Source of the DNA: Planctomycetota bacterium
Lineage (GTDB): Bacteria > Planctomycetota > Planctomycetia > Gemmatales > Gemmataceae
Assembly: GCA_016873095.1 (NCBI GenBank)
Contig: VGYC01000013.1
Span: 1-64,000, forward strand
Direction of reading: 5' to 3'
DNA length: 64,000 nt
Position 1 is the stretch's first letter. Each line of letters starts with the position of its first letter. The notes under the pieces are model-generated. The model saw only the letters and a program-made list of their open reading frames with translations, did no database searches and was not told the DNA's origin. Shown here piece by piece: positions 15,433-50,645 of this stretch. Made by a program: the position numbers and the translations under genes.

Positions 15433-15583
15433 GTCAATTATCACAACCGAGAAAGGAGGTAGCGTCAAGGTCTCTTGTATATGGGAGGGCGCGGCTTCCG
15501 CCGAGCCATGAAGCTACCGGTAACGTTTCGGTCCAAACGACTCGCCAGGAGCCTCGCCCACCGCCCTCCCGGAATGGGGACGC

Positions 15584-38590: not shown

Positions 38591-41500
38591 TTAATCGCCC
38601 ACGCGCACTTTTGCCTGGTTCTGCAAACCCTGGAAGCGGTCTTGCCAGGTTCCTTCGGCGAGTTGCCGGTACAGGGCGCGGGCCTGTTGCGGTCGGCCGG
38701 CCTGGCGGAGGTTCTCGGCGCGGTCCCAGAGGATCTGCGCGTTGGTCGGCTCCGACTCGAACGCCGCCTTGTAGGCGCGGTCGGAGAGGTCCAGCTCGCC
38801 TTGCTGGTTGAGGTTGGCCGCCAGCGCCGCCCACGGGCCGGCCTCGTTCGGCTTCGAGGCGATCGGCGTCGTCAAGTATTCCCACTCCATGTCGCGGCCG
38901 CCCAGCCGGCGCAGGATCCCGGCTGCCAACGCACAGGCCCGATCCGGATCATTATCCACCGCCCGCCAGCGATCCGCCGTCCGCACCACCTTGGCGAGGA
39001 ACCCCTCCGGCGGCTTCAACTTCAAGGCCACCATCGCCTCGGCTAGGCTTTGATAATGGTCCAGCAGCGCGGCATAGTCGTGGCGGAACGATTCCAGGTT
39101 GATCGTCTCCGGCAGGCTCTTGAACTCCAGGTCGAGCGCCTTCTCCAGGCATTCCACCTTGCGGACGTTGCGGCCACGTTTCTCGGCAAGGACAGCACCC
39201 ATTCGCCATAGCTCCGGCCTCTTCGCCAACTCGGCATCGGCGAGCAGCTTGGAGAGCAGCGCCTCGGTCTCGGCGAGCTGGCCGGTTTCTTGCAGGAAAT
39301 GGACGCCGGCCTTCTGCAAGGCGAGCCGTTCTTTGGCGTCTTTCACGCCGTCGAGCGCCATCTCGAGCAACTGATTGGCGAGCGGCAAATCCTCCAGCTG
39401 ACCACATTGCCGCGCGAGCGCCAGCACCGCCGGGCGATGCTTCTTCTCGATAAGGCTGCGGGCCGTCTTGCGGAGCAGTTCGCCCCAGGCATCCGCTTCG
39501 CCGGCGTTGCCGAGCAGCGCTTGCCGGAAGTCGGCGTCGATGGCCGGCAGCTCGTCGCGCTGCAACGTGTCCTCGTACAACTTGCGGAAGGCGGTGCGCG
39601 CTTCCTTCCTGTCGCCGGCGTTGAGAAGGCTGCGCGCCGCCTCATAGCGCGCCGCATCCACCAGCCCGACGCGTAAGCGAGGGTCCGCAAACAGCATCCA
39701 ACATTCCGCCAGCTCGCGCTGGAACGCCTTGTCCTCGCCGGCCCGATCCTGCATGAGACACAGGAGCGACCAGGCAAACCCCGTCCCCTTGTGCTTGCGG
39801 ACATATTCGACCGCCCGCTTCTTCTCGGCTGCGGCTCGGGTTGCGTCGCCGGTCAGCAGCTTCTTGTTCTGCCAGCGCTGCAAGAGAGCGTGCGTGTAGG
39901 CGAGATGTTTGAGGTAGCCGTCCTTCCAGTGATCGCTGGACACGGCCCATTGACTGGCGTGGTCGCGCAGCACCGGGCTGGAGTAGAGTGCGAGGTAATG
40001 GGCCAGCGGCTCATCCATGTGCTCGGCCAGCACGTTGCCATTCTGCGAGTCGAGATTCATGCCGCAGGCGGCGAGCAGGACGTAGAAGCCGATCTGCCGC
40101 TGGTTCTTGGCGTGGAAGACCTGGCGGAAGACGGCGTCGGCTTCCTTGCCGTTGCCGGCCGCGTAGTGGGCCGCGAACAACGGCAACGCTGCCGCGAACG
40201 TGAGGTTCTGCACCGCCTTCTCTTCGATCTTGAGCGCCTTCTTGACATGCTCCGCCGTGCGGAACGGCAACGGCAGCACGACGAGGTCCTTCGTGTCCGG
40301 CGACAGGTTCGGCGCCTCGGCGGCGGCGAGCTTCGCTTTCTGCGTGTCGATGACCTTGCCCTTGCCGTCTTCCAGTGTCACCGTGCCGTCAGCGGCAAGG
40401 ATGAGCCGCGACACAATCTCCCCTCTCCCCCCGGGAGAGAGGCCGGGGGTGAGGGTGCGGACGAGACGCTTCTCAGCGAGACGGCCATCTTGCGAGAAGA
40501 TGGAGTGCAAAGCGAGGGACGCGGGCGGGCGAGACCCGGGAGGGCGAGGCTCCTGCCGAGCCGCTTCACCATCACCCCGAGCCGGTTGACCGTCGCGCTT
40601 GCCTTCCGTCTGCGGCTCGGCAGGAGCCTCGCCCTCCCGGCCTGAGCGTTGCCCCACATCCGTCCCCTCGCCCCCGGTACTCCGGGGGAGAGGGGCAGGG
40701 GTGAGGGGGTCAGTATCACGCGCGAGAGCATCATGCCGTTGCGAGGGGCCTTGTCCCCCCTCACCCCGGCCCTCTCCCCCCGGAGTCCCTTGGGGAGAGG
40801 GGGGAAGATTGGTGTCGCGCGCAAGACGTTTGACATGCGGCACGACTGCCACCGTGTTGTCATCGAGCAGCTTCACATCGGCGCCGTGGGCGAGATCGTC
40901 GGCCGACGGCACGAACCAGGGCAGCATCTCGGCGAGGTCGAGGCGGTGAAACCGGCTGATGGGCCGCTGGGCGGCGATGCCGAGCTGCGGGTACACGTGC
41001 ATGAGCGTCTTGCCGTCGCAGATCACGACTTCACGGATGCCCGGCGGCAGCTCGCGCTCGTAGGCGAACCGGCCCTGGCCATCGAAGCGGATGGTCGTCG
41101 CGGATCGGGTCAATGACCGCCAGCCGGCCTTTCGAGCCTGGTCGAGCAACTCGCGGGCGCCGGCGTCGATCTTGCCGCGCCGCGAGGAGCGCGTGGGGAG
41201 GGCTTCGGCTTCGAGGATGGCGAGGATGTCGGCGGATGTTGCATGCAGGCCGGTCGCTGAGCCTGCGATTTTGACGAAGGCGCTGTCATCCAGAGAAATG
41301 GTCGGTCGCTTGTAGAACGTGGTTCCGACATGCAAATGCGGGACGAGGTTGATAGCTCCCAGTTCTCTCGCCAGATACACCTTGTGAGCATCCTCGGGAG
41401 CGAGCGCGACGTATACGAGGTCTGAATCATCGACCCGAACGACTTGAACGTTTTCGAGAATCACTCGCTCTGCATTATTCCCTTTGGGCTGAAACAAGAG

Positions 41501-43183
41501 ATCGACTCGTGAACCAGTGACAAGTCTTCTCGATTGTTGCGGCACGCGAATCTGGACTACTCGTAGCCCTTGGGGAAGAAGATGTAGCATGTACCTGTCA
41601 GCATTCTGGTGAGAATGCTCAAATCGCCAGCCCATTGGGACTCCGTGTCCGCCCAACCCCATGGTCCAATTGTCTTTCGCGGATAGACGAGATGCTAGCT
41701 CATGACGAAGTGTAAGCGAACTATGTTCAATATCCCGGAGAACTGCAAACAGCCGTAGCTGCATGCTATGTTCCAAACCGACTGTCCTACGAATGACGCG
41801 ATCTTGCGAAACATCATTGCCAACGATGATCACCTGTCCCACTCGCGCCGGACGAAGGTGGTCGGGCATTTCAATGCCAATGGCGCCCGGACGGTAACTC
41901 GGAAATCCACCAAACGGCGGAACGGACATCCCAATACTCGTTGAATTGATCGGAATTTGCAGTTCAGGTTCGAACCCAGGAGGCGATAGTATTCCTCCTT
42001 CCGGAAGAGCGATTAGCGCGTCATTTGTAACGGCCGCAGGCGTAGCTGTAGAGCGATGCTTGAATCGAACGTACTGGTTCGTACCCACAATCGTCTCCAG
42101 CACCTTCTTCGCCGGCAGCTTCCCGCTCTTCTTCGCCGCCTTCCAGTCCACGCCGCCGTCTTCCGGCTCGTGAACGACGGCGATCTTCGGCGGGCAGGGG
42201 TACATGGCCCAGTGGTCCTTGCGGCCGCGGTCGACCTTGTATTGCGCGTACATGTCGTCGTTTTCCAGGACCAGCAGCGACGTGAACGGCGTCATCACGT
42301 ACATCGCCTTGGACAGGGCGATGACGCTCTCCTTGTGCTTGGCCGCATCCTCGGCCAGCAGGCGGTCGATCTCCAGCTTTGCCCACGTCCGCGGTAGGTG
42401 GCCGGTTTCCTTGACGTCCTTCACGGGCAAGATGCGCTCGAACGGCTTGCCGTTCTGCATGCCGCGGATGGCGATGGAAGTAATCGCCTGCTTCTCCGGC
42501 ACACGGGCGACGGCGGCGATCTCCTCGCCTTGCGCGACGATGTGGTTGAAGGCAAGGAAACGGGCCTCGCCGGCGGCATCGGCCACCTGCACGTCGAGCA
42601 GCCGTGGCGCGCGCAGCGTGCTCATGATCTCGAAGGCCCGCCAGGCCAGCGGCTCATCGGGATTGACGTGAGCGTAGAGCCCGCCGGTCTTCTCGGCGGC
42701 GAGCTTCATCAGGTCGCGGTTCCAGCGCCGGCCCACGCCGATGCCGATGTACTGCGTCCCCTTGGACAGCTTGCGGGCAAGGACATCGTGGCGTTTCTCG
42801 CCCATGGCCGGGATGCCGCTGCCGACGTGCAGCAACACGCCGGACTTGGTTACGCCGGCGGCATGGTCGATGGCCTGGCCGAGGTCGAGGGCGCCGATGA
42901 GGTGGGATTTCTCCAGCGATGCTATCGCCTTGTCAATGTTGGTGCGCGAAACCGCAAGCGACGTTGCCAGCGATTGCACGCGGGTGTTGGCCGTCAGCAG
43001 CGTGAACGTGTCGGCCGGGTCGGCGTGGGCGAGCATGTGGCGCGTCACCTCGATCTGCGCGCGGGCAAGCAGCGGATCGCGATCAGCGGAGGTCTCGAAC
43101 AGCACCGTCCAATGTGTGCCGATTGCAGATTGCAGATTTGAGATTGCAGATTTACGGAAGTCGGGGGCATAGCGGACCATCAA
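38591..43183 (-). CDS. Downstream part of a frameshifted giant vWA/RcpC-like/TPR protein
   Basis: A 1530-residue frame that continues the VIT protein encoded just upstream on the same strand; its opening residues HRYLMVRYAPDF follow on from FSTHVQA in the other frame. Contents in order: vWA-like domain (about 43100-42600, VLFETSADRDPLLARAQIEV), connecting region, a lower-GC segment (about 42070-41270) with an RcpC/CpaB-like domain (LPQGLRVVQIRV, RLVTGSRVDLLF, ALAPEDAHKVYLA), a region whose frame contains several palindromic repeats (about 40860-40410), and a helical TPR-like C-terminal half (YKAAFESEPTNAQILWD near the end). The upstream part carries a signal peptide, so the protein is probably extracytoplasmic. 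If the frameshift is real, this part may not be translated efficiently, although ATG 43180 is available. Confidence 0.75.
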   Translation of the reverse strand: MMVRYAPDFRKSAISNLQSAIGTHWTVLFETSADRDPLLARAQIEVTRHMLAHADPADTFTLLTANTRVQSLATSLAVSRTNIDKAIASLEKSHLIGALDLGQAIDHAAGVTKSGVLLHVGSGIPAMGEKRHDVLARKLSKGTQYIGIGVGRRWNRDLMKLAAEKTGGLYAHVNPDEPLAWRAFEIMSTLRAPRLLDVQVADAAGEARFLAFNHIVAQGEEIAAVARVPEKQAITSIAIRGMQNGKPFERILPVKDVKETGHLPRTWAKLEIDRLLAEDAAKHKESVIALSKAMYVMTPFTSLLVLENDDMYAQYKVDRGRKDHWAMYPCPPKIAVVHEPEDGGVDWKAAKKSGKLPAKKVLETIVGTNQYVRFKHRSTATPAAVTNDALIALPEGGILSPPGFEPELQIPINSTSIGMSVPPFGGFPSYRPGAIGIEMPDHLRPARVGQVIIVGNDVSQDRVIRRTVGLEHSMQLRLFAVLRDIEHSSLTLRHELASRLSAKDNWTMGLGGHGVPMGWRFEHSHQNADRYMLHLLPQGLRVVQIRVPQQSRRLVTGSRVDLLFQPKGNNAERVILENVQVVRVDDSDLVYVALAPEDAHKVYLARELGAINLVPHLHVGTTFYKRPTISLDDSAFVKIAGSATGLHATSADILAILEAEALPTRSSRRGKIDAGARELLDQARKAGWRSLTRSATTIRFDGQGRFAYERELPPGIREVVICDGKTLMHVYPQLGIAAQRPISRFHRLDLAEMLPWFVPSADDLAHGADVKLLDDNTVAVVPHVKRLARDTNLPPSPQGTPGGEGRGEGGQGPSQRHDALARDTDPLTPAPLPRSTGGEGTDVGQRSGREGEAPAEPQTEGKRDGQPARGDGEAARQEPRPPGSRPPASLALHSIFSQDGRLAEKRLVRTLTPGLSPGGRGEIVSRLILAADGTVTLEDGKGKVIDTQKAKLAAAEAPNLSPDTKDLVVLPLPFRTAEHVKKALKIEEKAVQNLTFAAALPLFAAHYAAGNGKEADAVFRQVFHAKNQRQIGFYVLLAACGMNLDSQNGNVLAEHMDEPLAHYLALYSSPVLRDHASQWAVSSDHWKDGYLKHLAYTHALLQRWQNKKLLTGDATRAAAEKKRAVEYVRKHKGTGFAWSLLCLMQDRAGEDKAFQRELAECWMLFADPRLRVGLVDAARYEAARSLLNAGDRKEARTAFRKLYEDTLQRDELPAIDADFRQALLGNAGEADAWGELLRKTARSLIEKKHRPAVLALARQCGQLEDLPLANQLLEMALDGVKDAKERLALQKAGVHFLQETGQLAETEALLSKLLADAELAKRPELWRMGAVLAEKRGRNVRKVECLEKALDLEFKSLPETINLESFRHDYAALLDHYQSLAEAMVALKLKPPEGFLAKVVRTADRWRAVDNDPDRACALAAGILRRLGGRDMEWEYLTTPIASKPNEAGPWAALAANLNQQGELDLSDRAYKAAFESEPTNAQILWDRAENLRQAGRPQQARALYRQLAEGTWQDRFQGLQNQAKVRVGD
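40418..40456. repeat. Dispersed repeat, family A, inside the giant gene
   Basis: Palindromic C/G-rich element containing CTCCCCTCTCC and GAGGGT ends; copies at 40664-40708, 40755-40805 (inverted), 44002-44040 and 44205-44240 (inverted). All five lie within the giant gene and none introduces a stop in the surrounding frame. Confidence 0.75.
40536..40640. repeat. Dispersed repeat, family B: 29-bp perfect inverted repeat
   Basis: Arms at 40536-40564 and 40612-40640 are exact reverse complements of 29 bases, separated by 47 bases. The core GCTCGGCAGGAGCCTCGCCC also occurs at 47918-47943, outside this gene, so it is a dispersed element. In the minus-strand frame it encodes EGEAPAEPQ and QEPRPPGSRPP. 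Confidence 0.85.
40664..40708. repeat. Dispersed repeat, family A copy
   Basis: Palindromic copy with CCCCTCGCCCCCGG on one side and GGGGTGAGGG on the other, encoding LTPAPLPRSTGGEGT in the giant protein. Confidence 0.65.
40755..40805. repeat. Dispersed repeat, family A copy, inverted
   Basis: Opposite orientation to the copies at 40418 and 40664, with CCCCTCACCCCGGCCCTCTC at its left end. It encodes PPSPQGTPGGEGRGEGG. Confidence 0.65.
41270..42070 (-). other. Lower-GC segment with RcpC/CpaB-like domain inside the giant gene
   Basis: By eye this 800-base stretch is clearly less GC-rich than the rest of the gene and uses A/T-ending codons freely. Its translation includes LPQGLRVVQIRV, RLVTGSRVDLLF, RVILENVQVVRVD and ALAPEDAHKVYLARELGAIN, the successive motifs of the RcpC/CpaB (Flp pilus assembly) domain. 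The edges are approximate. Confidence 0.6.
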
Positions 43184-43267
43184 GTAGCGATGGCCTGCAC
43201 GTGCGTCGAGAACCTGGCCTCGTCTCTTAAATCTGCATTCTGAAATCTCAAATCTGCAATCTGCAAC
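43121..43267. repeat. Dispersed repeat, family C: inverted pair flanking the frameshift
   Basis: Arms 43123-43145 and 43244-43266 are exact reverse complements (23 bases, built from repeats of the type GATTGCAGATT). Both are read in frame as low-complexity peptide (LQIADLRFQNADLR on one side, KSAISNLQSAIG on the other). The frameshift lies between them. Confidence 0.85.
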
Positions 43268-44460
43268 CGCACGTCCTTGTCGAACTTCGCGTTCTTGACG
43301 CTACCCGTGAGGATGAGATCGCTCTCTCCCTTGCTGGCCGTCAGGTCGTGCGACAGGCAGCTCCAGGCCATTTTCGCGCCGTCCTTGATGGTGGCGTAGA
43401 AACTCCACTCGCGCACGGCCGGCAGGCTGTGCCCGGCCGGGAAGCGATAGTCCATCGTGCCGTGCAGCACCGGCAGCTTCTGCGTGTAGCTGAGGATGAT
43501 GCGTTTTACCTGCCGGGGCTCGATGGGGAAGACGCGCATCTTGAAGGTGCTGCCGTCGAGCCATTCGAGCAACGCCGGGTCGCGGCGCATGTAGCGGATC
43601 GACTCGTAGACTTGCCGGGCGTAATCGCGCTCGGCCATGCCGCCTTCCATCAGCACGCCATCCACGTACATCGCCAGCCGGGACAGCGAGGCATCCGGCG
43701 GCAAAGGAAAGTAAAACGTCCCTTGCAGCTGCTGGTTCTCGTGATTGAAGTATGTCTGGTCGATGGTGGTGCGCGCGAAGCCGTCCTCGACGTGGACGTC
43801 GATGTGGTACTTGCGGAGCGCGAGCTTCATCTCCTGGCCATTGGGATCGAGCGCGACCAGGGCGCCGCCGGCGAAATTGCTGCCGGGAACCAGCGGCGTG
43901 TCCTCGCACATCGGCTCGCGTGTCCACTTGAGGAGATGCGCGAGCCGCGGCGCCGCTTCAATCTTGTTCTTGCCGGGAAGCAACCGCTGCCCGGCGACTA
44001 TCTCCCCTCTCCCTCCGGGAGAGGGGCTGGGGGTGAGGGTGACCTTGCCGCTAGCAACCACGACGCCGGTCCCCGTCTCTTTCACGGCGACCGCGAAACC
44101 GCCGCTGCCGGTGATCTCGCGATGGGCGGTCTTGACGCGAAGCTGCTTGTTCTCGTCGCGCGCCGTCTCGAGGTAGATTTCACCCGCCGTCAGTGACAGC
44201 GTTACCCTCACCCCCGGCCCCTCTCCCGAAGGGGGAGAGGAGCTTTCGACTTTGCCGCGCGTGTTCTCGCGAATGAAGGCGATGGTGCCGTCGGGCAACA
44301 GCCGCCGCACGGCGACGCTGCCGGTGTCGAGGCGGTCGCCGACCTGCAAGGGCCGGACGGCGATCGCCTTGCCGCGCGGGCGGCTGGCGAGGAAATCGTC
44401 GGCGATGATACCGCCAGAGACGCAGAGCAGAACGAGCGTGGCCCGCAGAAATGACCTCAT
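43180..44460 (-). CDS. N-terminal part of the giant gene: FecR-like and VIT domains
   Basis: A 426-residue frame with signal peptide (about residues 1-21), a FecR-like region (about 30-160: VGDRLDTGSVAVRRLLPDGT, LTAGEIYLETARDENKQ, FAVAVKETGTGVVVASGKV) and a VIT domain (about 200-360: VDVHVEDGFARTTIDQTYFN-like start, FYFPLPPDASLSRLAMYVDG, RVFPIEPRQVKRIILSYTQ). The ATG at 44460 is well supported by AAGGAG five bases upstream. The frame ends at TGA 43180-43182, just where the family continues, in another frame, with the vWA domain. Family-A repeat copies occur in frame at 44002-44040 and 44205-44240. I read it as the first quarter of an interrupted protein of about 1,950 residues. Confidence 0.8.
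   Translation of the reverse strand: MRSFLRATLVLLCVSGGIIADDFLASRPRGKAIAVRPLQVGDRLDTGSVAVRRLLPDGTIAFIRENTRGKVESSSPPSGEGPGVRVTLSLTAGEIYLETARDENKQLRVKTAHREITGSGGFAVAVKETGTGVVVASGKVTLTPSPSPGGRGEIVAGQRLLPGKNKIEAAPRLAHLLKWTREPMCEDTPLVPGSNFAGGALVALDPNGQEMKLALRKYHIDVHVEDGFARTTIDQTYFNHENQQLQGTFYFPLPPDASLSRLAMYVDGVLMEGGMAERDYARQVYESIRYMRRDPALLEWLDGSTFKMRVFPIEPRQVKRIILSYTQKLPVLHGTMDYRFPAGHSLPAVREWSFYATIKDGAKMAWSCLSHDLTASKGESDLILTGSVKNAKFDKDVRLQIADLRFQNADLRDEARFSTHVQAIAT
44002..44040. repeat. Dispersed repeat, family A copy in the FecR-like region
   Basis: Palindromic copy in the same orientation as 40418; encodes LTPSPSPGGRGEIV between strands of the FecR-like part. Confidence 0.7.
44205..44240. repeat. 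Dispersed repeat, family A copy, inverted
   Basis: Opposite orientation to 44002, with ACCCTCACCCCCGGCCCCTC on its left; encodes SSPPSGEGPGVRVTL in the FecR-like part. Confidence 0.7.
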
Positions 44461-44529
44461 GGCAGCTCCTTTGCGAGATGAGGGTGAAGGGTGCTGCGGC
44501 ACATTGTATCCGGGGCGGCGCGTGCGTTG

Positions 44530-46503: not shown

Positions 46504-47901
46504 ATGACTGGCTTGAAATTGAACTGGGGACGGAAAGTTGCGGCGGCAGCAGTTTGCGCGGTCCTGGTGTGGGCGACGCCGGCACTGCAGGCGGCGTGCT
46601 GCTATTTCTCGGCCAAGAATGCGGACATCTTGCAGCCGGCCCAGAAAGTTTTCATCACCTGGGACCCGGTCAAGAAGATGGAGAGCTTCACCGTGCAGCC
46701 GAAGTTCGAGGGCAACGCCCAGGACTTCGGGATGGTGATCCCGACGCCGTCGCAGCCAAAGCTGCATGAGATGCCGCGTGACTTCTTCAAGCAGCTTGCC
46801 GTGTACAGCATCATGAAGAAGCGGGAGTTTCCGCATTCGAAGCTGTTGCCGCAGCGCGAATTCGCGCGGCTGGCGCAGAACGCCATGCGGGCAGATCGCG
46901 ATGGTCGCGGCGAGGGCAAGGCCGCGCCGCGACCCAACAGCGTCGTCGTCCTCGAGGCCGGAGTCGTGGGCTCCCTGGACTACAAGATCATCTCGGCGGA
47001 CAGGGCCGACGATCTGTTCGGCTGGCTCAAGGACAACAAGTATCACTTCGCCGGCGACGAGGCCACGCTCAACCATTACATCCAGAAGAAGTGGCTGTTC
47101 ACGGTCATGAAGATCGACACCATGCAGATGAAGAAGAACAAGGACGGCAGCTTCTCCGGCGACGTGACGCCGACGCGCTTCCAGTTCTCGTCCGACAGGC
47201 TGGTCTATCCGCTCAAGATCACGCAGATCTCGGTGAAGGACAAGACGGAAGCTCTGTTCTATGTGCAGGCGCCGTTCAAGGTCGATCTGCCTGGCGACAT
47301 GAGCTACAAGTATACGTGGCTGCCGATGTTGCAGGCGGCGTCGGGTTGCACTCCAGGCGGCTTGCCGGGCCGTTGCGGGGACTGGCTGCAAGCCATCAAC
47401 CCGCAGATTCCGCCGATCTTGCAGCGCGGGCAAAACCTCGGCTTCAACTTCGTTGCTGGGCGGCGCCCGCAGCCTAACAAGGAAGGGCACATCCCCACGA
47501 CGATGGAATGGGCCCGCAGGCTGACGGTCGACGATATCAAGATTCTCCAGGGCCGGGCTCCATACAGCGAGAAGATCCCGGACGTGGACGAGGGCTTCAC
47601 GCCGGCGGATGTCAAGGACCCGCAGCGCTCCGCAGCGGTCATCAAGGTCATCCAGGCGCGGCTGGCCAGGGCCCGACAGGAACGGCCCTTCGGCTACCGC
47701 GTGCGCGAAGCCCCCGCGGACGACGTCAAGAACCTGCGCCACCTGGCCGGCCACCTGGAGGAAGGCAAGTTCATCACCAAGTTCCGCAAGATCTTCGCCC
47801 GCGACGAGATGAACGATGATCTGTTGATCGTAGCCGCCCGCGAGGGCAACCAGGAGGACTTTTCCGAGTACCAGGAGATCTTGCCGACCTCGCCCCCGTG
47901 A
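46504..47901 (+). CDS. Secreted DUF2330 protein
   Basis: A 465-residue exported protein. The signal peptide (about residues 1-30, ending LQAACC) leads into the DUF2330 start, CCYFSAKNADILQPAQKVFI, in which the Cys-Cys is typical. The family also shows FGMVIPTPSQPKLHEMP and, in the second half, ALFYVQAPFKVDLPGDMSYK. Function is unknown; members are found mainly in planctomycetes and other large-genome bacteria. GAGGGGAATGCC precedes the ATG at a good distance. A dispersed repeat (family B) and a terminator hairpin follow. Confidence 0.85.
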   Translation: MTGLKLNWGRKVAAAAVCAVLVWATPALQAACCYFSAKNADILQPAQKVFITWDPVKKMESFTVQPKFEGNAQDFGMVIPTPSQPKLHEMPRDFFKQLAVYSIMKKREFPHSKLLPQREFARLAQNAMRADRDGRGEGKAAPRPNSVVVLEAGVVGSLDYKIISADRADDLFGWLKDNKYHFAGDEATLNHYIQKKWLFTVMKIDTMQMKKNKDGSFSGDVTPTRFQFSSDRLVYPLKITQISVKDKTEALFYVQAPFKVDLPGDMSYKYTWLPMLQAASGCTPGGLPGRCGDWLQAINPQIPPILQRGQNLGFNFVAGRRPQPNKEGHIPTTMEWARRLTVDDIKILQGRAPYSEKIPDVDEGFTPADVKDPQRSAAVIKVIQARLARARQERPFGYRVREAPADDVKNLRHLAGHLEEGKFITKFRKIFARDEMNDDLLIVAAREGNQEDFSEYQEILPTSPP

Positions 47902-47917
47902 TCTCGATGATTCAAAA

Positions 47918-47943
47918 CGGCTCGGCAGGAGCCTCGCCCTCCC
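47918..47943. repeat. Dispersed repeat, family B, intergenic copy
   Basis: 26-base copy of the element that forms the 29-bp inverted repeat in the giant gene; here a single arm, starting 16 bases after the DUF2330 stop. Confidence 0.8.
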
Positions 47944-48050: not shown

Positions 48051-50645
48051 ATGAAGAAGATGCGCATCGTTGCGGCATTCGCGTTGCTGGCGGCCCTGCT
48101 GTCCTCTGTTCAGGCGCAGCCGGCAGCGGAACCCAAGGAGAAGATTGATCCGCAAGAACAACTCGCCGGACTGCTGAAGGAGTTGAGCTCCGCCGAGGGA
48201 AATGAGCGGGTCCAGGCCATCGTCGCGCTGGCGGACTTTGGCCCCAAGGCCAAGGACGCCGTACCCGACCTCATCAAGGCGCTGAAGGAGAACGATGAGG
48301 ACGTACGCCTGAATGCCGCCATCACGCTCGGCAAGATCGGCAAGGCGGCCGTCGGCGAGTTGACAGAGTTGCTGCCTTCGGAGAATGAGGACGTGCGATT
48401 CTATTCGGTGTGGGCCCTGGGCTGGATCGGAGCCGACGCCAAGGCCGCAGCACCGGCGGTAATCCGGGCCCTGGCGGACAAGAGCGAGGGTGTGCGGCGC
48501 AAGGCAGCTTTCGCGCTGGGCCGCATCGCACCGGACCCGGAGACGGCAGTGCCCGCGCTGATCAATGCGCTGGATGACAAGCAAGAGGACGTTTGCCAGG
48601 CCGCCGCCGACGGACTCTCGAAAATCGGAGCACCGGCCGTGAAAGCCCTCATCGAAGCGCTGACCGGTCCGGAAAAGGTGCGACAGCATGCCGCCAATGC
48701 GCTGGGCGAGATTGGCCCGGATGCCAAGGCCGCCATCCCCGCGTTGAAGGAATTGCTGCTCGCTGACAAGAACACGATCCCGGTCATGACCTCACAGGCC
48801 ATGGCCAAGATCGGCAAGGAGGCGATTCCCGCCCTGGTCGCTGTGCTCAAGGATGAGCGCCCGGCAGTGCGCATGGCGGGCCTCGAGGGCCTGTCCAAGA
48901 TCGGCGCGCCGGCCGTCGGGCATCTGGTGGATGCTCTCGGCGACAAGCGCGTGGACATGCGCCGCTATGCCGCCCAGTTGCTGGGCCCGATGCGTATCGG
49001 CGACAAGATGGTCGTGCTCGCTCTTGCGTTCGCGATCAAGGACAAGGACGAACAGGTACGGCAGATGTCCCTGAGCGCGCTGCAGCAACTCGGGCCGGCC
49101 GGCAAGCTTGCGGCTCCCTACCTGCAGAAAGCACTGGCCGACGCGGATTTCAACGTGCGCCAGCAAGCCTTCTTCACGCTGCAAAGCATGGGCGAGGACC
49201 CGCGGCCCGGCCTGATCAAGGCGCTGGGCAGCAAGGACGCGACCATTCAGATCAACACCGCGGCGCTCATGGTGTCCGTCAATGTTGAGCCTGAGACAGC
49301 CGTCCCATACCTGCTGGACGGCTTGAAGAACAAGGATCTGGGACTGCGCATGCAGGCCGCCTTCGCGCTCGCGCAATCACGCCGCGAATCGGACAAGGTT
49401 GTGCCCATCCTCACCGAGGGCCTCAAGCATGAGCGCGTCAGCGTTCGCCAGCAGGCCGTCAACGGCCTGTCGATGCTGGGCAACCAGGCACAATCCGCAG
49501 CGCCGATGCTCGTTGACGCGCTCAAGGACAAGGACACGAATATCCGCCAGCAAGCCGTCTACGCGCTGCAGAATGTACGCGGCGATCCGGAGATTGTCGT
49601 TCCCGCGTTGGCCAAACTGCTCAAGGACAAGGAGTCGAGCGTGCGCCAGGCCGTGGTGCAGAGCCTGTGGCCGCACGGCAGCAAGGCCATGCCGCTGATT
49701 CTTGAGGCCATCAAGGACAAGGACCAGAGCGTGCGTCAGCAAGCGGTGTATTCGCTGCAGAATCTGCAAGGCGCGGATCTCAAGACCGCCCTGCCCATCC
49801 TGGTGGACTTGCTCAAGACGGACAGCGTCAACGTGCGCCAGGGTGCCATCCACGTCATGGCGCGCATCGGCGCGCCGGCGCTGCCGCACATGATGGAAGC
49901 ACTGAAGAACAAGGAGCCGAACGTGCGCTGGATGGCGGCGATGCACTTGCGCAATTTCGGCGAGGCCGCCAAGAAGGCCATGCCGACGCTCGTGGAAATG
50001 GTGAGCACCGACAAGGACCCCAATGCTCGCATCCACGCCGCCTATGCCCTGGCCAGCATGGGCGAAGTGGGCATCGGCAAGCTCGTCGGCGTCATCAAGG
50101 ATGAGAACAGCGAGGAGGTTCGCGCATCCGCCATGCAGGCTCTGATGAACTTCGGCAATCGTTCCAAGGCGACGCTGCCGGTGTTCATCGATGCCCTGAA
50201 GGACAAGTCGCCGCGCATTCGCTGGACCGCCGCCCAGGGGCTATCGCAGATGGGGACCAACGCCAGGGCAGCGGTTCCCGCCCTGGCGGAGGCACTCAAG
50301 GACAAGCATACCACCGTGCGCGACAACGCCAGCTTCGCGCTCATCAACATCGGCCCGGACGGCTATCCGCCGCTGTTCAAGAGCCTGTCCATCAAGGACA
50401 GCAACTATCGTCAGAATGTGTTGCAAAACCTGGTCAACCGCCGCGCCGGCGACAAGGACGCGGTACCGGTCCTCATCACCTGCCTCAAGGACAAGAACGC
50501 CCAGGTGCGCTGGCTGGCCTGCCAGCTGCTCGGCAACATCGGCCCGGACGCCCGCGCTGCCGTACAGGCGCTCAAAGCAGCCAGCAACGACAGCAACCAG
50601 ACCGTCCGCCAGCAAGCCCAGGCAGCCTTGAAGCGGATTGAATGA
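48051..50645 (+). CDS. Secreted HEAT-repeat protein
   Basis: An 864-residue protein made almost entirely of HEAT/PBS-lyase-like repeats after a signal peptide (about residues 1-23). At least twenty units of about 37-39 residues are recognisable, each with a DVRxxAAxALGxIG-like centre (VRRKAAFALGRIAPD, VRQQAVYALQNVRGD, VRWMAAMHLRNFGEA). It should form a long superhelical scaffold for protein binding outside the cytoplasm. The ATG at 48051 is chosen in front of the signal peptide; an upstream open frame includes repeat sequence and the hairpin, so it is not coding. AAGGA lies ten bases before the start. Codons for repeated motifs are themselves repetitive. Confidence 0.88.
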   Translation: MKKMRIVAAFALLAALLSSVQAQPAAEPKEKIDPQEQLAGLLKELSSAEGNERVQAIVALADFGPKAKDAVPDLIKALKENDEDVRLNAAITLGKIGKAAVGELTELLPSENEDVRFYSVWALGWIGADAKAAAPAVIRALADKSEGVRRKAAFALGRIAPDPETAVPALINALDDKQEDVCQAAADGLSKIGAPAVKALIEALTGPEKVRQHAANALGEIGPDAKAAIPALKELLLADKNTIPVMTSQAMAKIGKEAIPALVAVLKDERPAVRMAGLEGLSKIGAPAVGHLVDALGDKRVDMRRYAAQLLGPMRIGDKMVVLALAFAIKDKDEQVRQMSLSALQQLGPAGKLAAPYLQKALADADFNVRQQAFFTLQSMGEDPRPGLIKALGSKDATIQINTAALMVSVNVEPETAVPYLLDGLKNKDLGLRMQAAFALAQSRRESDKVVPILTEGLKHERVSVRQQAVNGLSMLGNQAQSAAPMLVDALKDKDTNIRQQAVYALQNVRGDPEIVVPALAKLLKDKESSVRQAVVQSLWPHGSKAMPLILEAIKDKDQSVRQQAVYSLQNLQGADLKTALPILVDLLKTDSVNVRQGAIHVMARIGAPALPHMMEALKNKEPNVRWMAAMHLRNFGEAAKKAMPTLVEMVSTDKDPNARIHAAYALASMGEVGIGKLVGVIKDENSEEVRASAMQALMNFGNRSKATLPVFIDALKDKSPRIRWTAAQGLSQMGTNARAAVPALAEALKDKHTTVRDNASFALINIGPDGYPPLFKSLSIKDSNYRQNVLQNLVNRRAGDKDAVPVLITCLKDKNAQVRWLACQLLGNIGPDARAAVQALKAASNDSNQTVRQQAQAALKRIE

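Follow-up and report, generated by a model that had tools for sequence, protein, structure and literature searches.

Dispersed palindromic repeats carried in frame as linker sequence in a FecR-VIT-VWA-TPR protein of the Gemmataceae

How does a long bacterial reading frame come to hold several unrelated palindromic repeats and still stay open? The question is raised by a gene within a 64-kb stretch of a Gemmataceae genome (C13:1-64000, referred to here as the window), which belongs to an 8.36-Mb draft assembly of 548 contigs that is 95.5% complete. The original prediction placed three copies of a repeat family A and a 29-bp perfect inverted pair of a second family B within positions 40410-40860, all read without a stop, and added two more family A copies in a FecR-like part and one family B copy lying between genes. 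Coordinates and open frames were confirmed for the cluster, and the remaining copies were found where they had been placed (Table 1). All repeats in the host protein are free of stops throughout the ORF that carries them. Our analysis extends this inventory with an inverted pair of a repeat type C at the VIT/VWA boundary, a tentative match to a family D, and another family B doublet located between genes. The insert in the linker itself amounts to about 90 extra residues made from family A repeats and the family B inverted pair in a single frame, built in the order A, loop, A, B, loop, B, with a further family A copy in the next loop. The family B pair in the linker has a folding z-score of -8.9.

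Table 1. Reading frames and repeat copies in the 64-kb window
Feature	Position	Strand	Details
Host ORF: VWA, putative LolA-like beta domain and TPR part	38591-43183	-	1530 aa, open throughout
Upstream half of host protein: FecR and VIT	43180-44502	-	Separate ORF here, single ORF in homologues
Repeat-built linker insert	40514-40834	-	About residues 784-890; Pro/Gly/Glu/Arg-rich
Family B doublet, REPIN-like	40536-40640		Arms 40536-40564 and 40612-40640, 29 nt each, 100% complementary, 47 nt loop
Family A copy, outer arm of A-loop-A doublet	40754-40806		
Family A copy, inner arm of A-loop-A doublet	40665-40710		
Family A copy, second loop downstream of linker	40412-40460		
Family A copy, FecR domain loop	43994-44042		Without counterpart in homologues
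Family A copy, another FecR domain loop	44200-44242		Without counterpart in homologues
Repeat type C, first arm, VIT/VWA boundary	43230-43275		In frame; without counterpart in homologues
Repeat type C, second arm	43110-43155		After frameshift
Family D core, exact match, tentative	39663-39681	-	About 3 residues more than in homologues
Family B single copy, intergenic	47918-47943	+	Confirmed at 47923-47942, in the gap between called genes ending at 47901 and starting at 48051
Family B doublet, more diverged, intergenic	15484-15562		

The host protein was originally described as a giant protein, a description that stands for its homologues and not for this assembly. What separates the FecR-VIT ORF from the VWA-TPR ORF here is an apparent 1-nt frameshift near 43180 (within 43170-43190), and one draft genome cannot tell whether this is a sequencing error or real. 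Homologues that are complete over the junction join both ORFs as one protein with FecR, VIT, VWA, LolA-like beta domain, and TPR part, each encoded by one ORF that can reach about 2,100 aa. Repeat type C (43110-43275) is an AT-richer inverted pair that surrounds the frameshift and is in frame on both sides of it. For the linker region, Pfam returned no convincing domain. An AlphaFold2 model of residues 610-955, made with 37 sequences, contains a beta domain in which pLDDT mostly exceeds 90 and places the linker insert, at pLDDT 40-56, between two consecutive strands; the next family A copy after the linker falls in another short loop of the model. In this prediction the insert forms a disordered beta-hairpin loop. 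The best Foldseek matches were to LolA (best E 0.002, with a low TM-score), which suggests that the domain around the linker is LolA-like, a likeness only.

The original prediction treated families A and B as dispersed repeats, and the genome-wide count bears this out with plentiful copies elsewhere. The family B core has 198 genome matches at up to two mismatches versus 1 for a reversed-pattern control, and the family A core has 31 matches versus 0. Among 95 genomes of the GTDB family, family B is patchy, occurring in 26 with up to 518 copies, and family A occurs in 33 with up to 376 copies. Group contexts were assigned from 80 copy neighbourhoods, a sample with a CDS fraction of 0.84, in which genes were called by a codon-usage script written for this analysis rather than by a standard annotator. 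Family B was mainly intergenic (63/81 groups, with 13/81 well inside genes) and 17 of the 29 family A groups lay inside genes. The intragenic habit of family B is not universal, since genome G068 has none of its 22 groups inside genes; in genome G035, 6 of 21 groups are intragenic, one of them in PurL at an apparently corresponding boundary. The family B consensus, GGGAGGGCGAGGCTCCTGCCGAGCCGTG, bears neither a GTAG nor a CGTC tag, and the family A copies examined also lack both; the family D core has CGTC. Inverted doublets of family B are most commonly spaced at an offset of 57 (23 of 43 intergenic doublets). With its high copy number, its inverted doublets at a preferred spacing, its hairpin, and its mainly extragenic placement, family B behaves in a REPIN-like manner.

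Comparison with homologous proteins provides the evidence that the inserts were gained. The linker between the flanking strands measures 131 aa here versus mostly 29-45 aa among 43 planctomycete homologues, and none of the homologous FecR-VIT-VWA-LolA-like-TPR proteins compared holds the A or B inserts of the window genome at the FecR or linker sites. This absence indicates gain, and it was one of the outcomes on which the original prediction depended. At the same sites, some other genomes hold different repeats. In G026, whose protein is among the nearest homologues, family D occurs twice at the same linker, and that genome contains 36 family D matches with a control of 0. At this linker G029 holds a family E. 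That genome has 120 matches to it (control 0), and this one gene accounts for three of them. A TPR loop is occupied at one alignment position by family E in G029 and by family A in the window genome's own paralogue (C53), and this loop is empty in the other full homologues. Further occupants of the linker are a family D copy in L228, which fits the search pattern at one mismatch, an A-like stretch in L255, and another palindrome in L242 and L246. At the VIT/VWA boundary, repeat C coincides with a repeat-like stretch in the paralogue. The calls for L255, L242, L246, and the paralogue boundary were made by visual inspection rather than by counting across the genome, and they carry less weight than those backed by such counts. 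The proposal that this frame is a tolerated landing site is therefore upheld by different genera holding different dispersed repeats at the linker and by an insert that is a predicted disordered hairpin loop. Its companion claim, that such landing creates new linker sequence, holds as a description of what happened and not of use or selection.

In-frame repeats are also present in other genes of the window genome, whose products were confirmed with family models or solved structures. IleRS holds both B and A, and its alignment to a solved IleRS resumes after the insert with nothing lost and 32 residues added; no other gene in the genome exceeds the IleRS family cut-off. In ValRS a family A copy lies between residues 209 and 250, with an A-like stretch close to residue 410, and PurL carries an in-frame repeat as well. 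In all three enzymes the insert is without counterpart in homologues. The list continues with Mfd, an Lhr-like helicase, a TrpE/PabB-type enzyme, a Hel308-like helicase, a PutA-type enzyme, a PDH E1 fusion, squalene-hopene cyclase, a BioD-BioA fusion, an alpha-2-macroglobulin-type protein, and DUF1501. Three kinases carrying family A have one insertion in common, and so there were fewer events than copies.

Several of these hosts merit separate mention. The ValRS (L119:1856-4999, G000:C56) is 1048 aa long and shows extra stretches at several places relative to an 862-aa Thermus-type PDB enzyme, at least two of them with family A sequence. In the PurL of two genera (L198 and L103), family B sits at what is seemingly one domain boundary, by either common ancestry or independent hits. 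The Ser/Thr kinase paralogues L141, L157, and L160 (G000:C114, C369, and C232) carry their A insert between HRDIKPAN and DFG, in the catalytic core, and because the insert is common to them it probably predates the duplications. Exact matches to the core of repeat type C are also found in these three loci. The BioD-BioA fusion (L089:1802-3829, G000:C7) has a family B doublet in its interdomain stretch, and this repeat may once have lain between two separate genes that later fused. Finally, a Y1-transposase ORF (L056:281-1081, G000:C379) apparently contains repeated SPVHGA-type peptides, hinting at another in-frame repeat family.

How the copies inside genes are read bears on whether they were filtered for tolerance. 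Intragenic family B doublets have frame-preserving lengths: an arm offset of 1 mod 3 is seen in 6 of 8 doublets in genes versus 8 of 43 intergenic doublets (Fisher p = 0.003), and the commonest intergenic offset of 57 is used by 0 of 8 doublets inside genes. None of the six frames of the family B core contains a stop, and a family B doublet offers 4.1 open frames of six versus 3.0 in shuffled DNA. In one orientation all eight arms in genes read GEAPAE; in the other they read RQEPRPP or RREPRPP (9) or SAGASPS (3). This bias is not absolute, since G035 reads family B as GRSLALP, a frame unused in the window genome. The single stop-bearing frame of family A is never used in genes. The elements are found both between genes and within them, in frame and without stops, as is characteristic of a protein-coding palindromic element. 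The coding score from the codon-usage caller falls over the repeats; we rejected this fall as a sign of non-translation because inserted DNA need not match host codon usage.

We consider it highly probable that these palindromes are mobile, that they insert, and that within genes only whole-codon, stop-free copies in permissive loops survive, the host protein having taken up A, B, and probably C. Under this mechanism, the short dispersed families A and B would insert widely, and a copy interrupting a gene would persist only if it added whole codons, brought no stop, and entered a loop able to lengthen without damage to the fold. Purifying selection would keep the frame-preserving inserts in permissive loops. 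The FecR-VIT-VWA-LolA-like-TPR protein would offer several such loops and so would have gathered copies that now read as a disordered Pro/Gly/Glu/Arg-rich linker, with translation predicted from the open frame. Near-neutral tolerance, rather than benefit, would account for their persistence. A RAYT-type (Y1) transposase acting in trans is the presumed mover; none of the five Y1_Tnp matches in this 95.5% complete draft of 548 contigs is flanked by A or B. No target-site duplication above permutation was seen for family B, and so we infer its movement by insertion from distribution only. A broader version, in which dispersed palindromes are a routine supplier of linkers in Planctomycetota, the loops are docking sites refilled by whichever family is active, and some inserts have been kept for function, strikes us as rather unlikely.

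The apparent frameshift that cuts the FecR-VIT half from the rest lies upstream of the linker, and the repeats of the host gene might therefore sit in a decaying pseudogene where they pile up for want of counter-selection. We find this improbable. The 1530-codon frame past the frameshift is intact with a strong coding signal in the codon-usage caller, and the frameshift itself may be an error of the draft assembly. Moreover, intact single-ORF homologues and the paralogue hold repeats at the same loops, and the same families are carried in frame in intact conserved enzymes; a frameshift in this gene cannot explain the inserts in IleRS, ValRS, and PurL. Sequence composition and assembly quality could instead be blamed, as GC is about 63.5% in the sample and the draft is in 548 contigs, and yet chance low-complexity GC-rich sequence or an assembly artefact is scarcely credible. 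Chance is already refuted by the reversed-pattern controls, and the insert is well within a 70.9-kb contig. In addition, the A-loop-A doublet of the linker (about 40661-40808, roughly 150 bp) recurs as an 85% identical unit, in the same frame, in an unrelated radical-SAM gene on another contig (G000:C138).

A different possibility is that the repeats are kept for a role, with an RNA hairpin or a charged linker regulating expression or spacing the domains. As RNA, the 451-nt insert region has a much stronger fold than shuffled sequences (z -8.8), the family B arms are perfectly complementary, and the use of peptide frames is skewed to hydrophilic ones. However, palindromes filtered for tolerance would also give a strong fold and a charge bias. 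Relatives hold unrelated repeats with unrelated peptides at the linker and most homologues are without any, so we give little weight to such a role. Tolerated insertion is the reading that we carry forward.

Inserts of this general kind are already known. Rickettsia (RPE) and Wolbachia palindromic elements are protein-coding palindromes (Ogata et al. 2000, 2002, 2005; reviewed in PMC2229807), and families A and B resemble them in kind, as dispersed palindromes that occur both between genes and in frame within conserved genes, stop-free and tolerated (PMC2229807). The organisms differ, and here unrelated families stack in one gene and genera re-use loops with different families. Intragenic GTAG/CGTC REPs encode stretches of 20-82 aa, whether alone, as doublets, or in clusters (Di Nocera et al. 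2013, PMC3733652). Their hosts include repair genes and tRNA synthetases and extend to the PVC bacterium Opitutus terrae, and recB of two Xanthomonas species provides one earlier case of different REPs at roughly one site (PMC3733652). Unlike those REPs, A and B are without a GTAG or CGTC tag, the hosts are Gemmataceae, and A is mostly intragenic in this genome. Family B shares with REPINs its high copy number, inverted doublets, preferred spacing, strong hairpin, and mostly extragenic position (PLoS Genet 2011, PMC3116915) and differs in that no RAYT gene was found adjoining it in this draft genome. Neisseria Correia and enterobacterial RU-1/ERIC elements are likewise short and mobile, with open frames and in-frame fusions into genes, and they have target-site duplications (PMC2229807), whereas none was seen for family B. 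In the open-licence literature we found no description of such inserts in Gemmataceae. What is new is therefore the occurrence in Gemmataceae, the stacking of unrelated families, and the re-use of sites between genera.

The analysis extends protein-coding palindromes to Gemmataceae on unusually strong comparative evidence, namely empty sites, frame-preserving lengths, and independent re-use of loops. Inserts in essential enzymes such as IleRS amount to many natural experiments, and with them the distinction between neutral and useful becomes directly testable. For those annotating planctomycete proteins, peptides such as GEAPAEP, RQEPRPP, and PSPPGEG can be repeat-derived and not conserved domains. 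Repeat insertion of this type, known first from Rickettsia, recurrently supplies proteins with new linkers.
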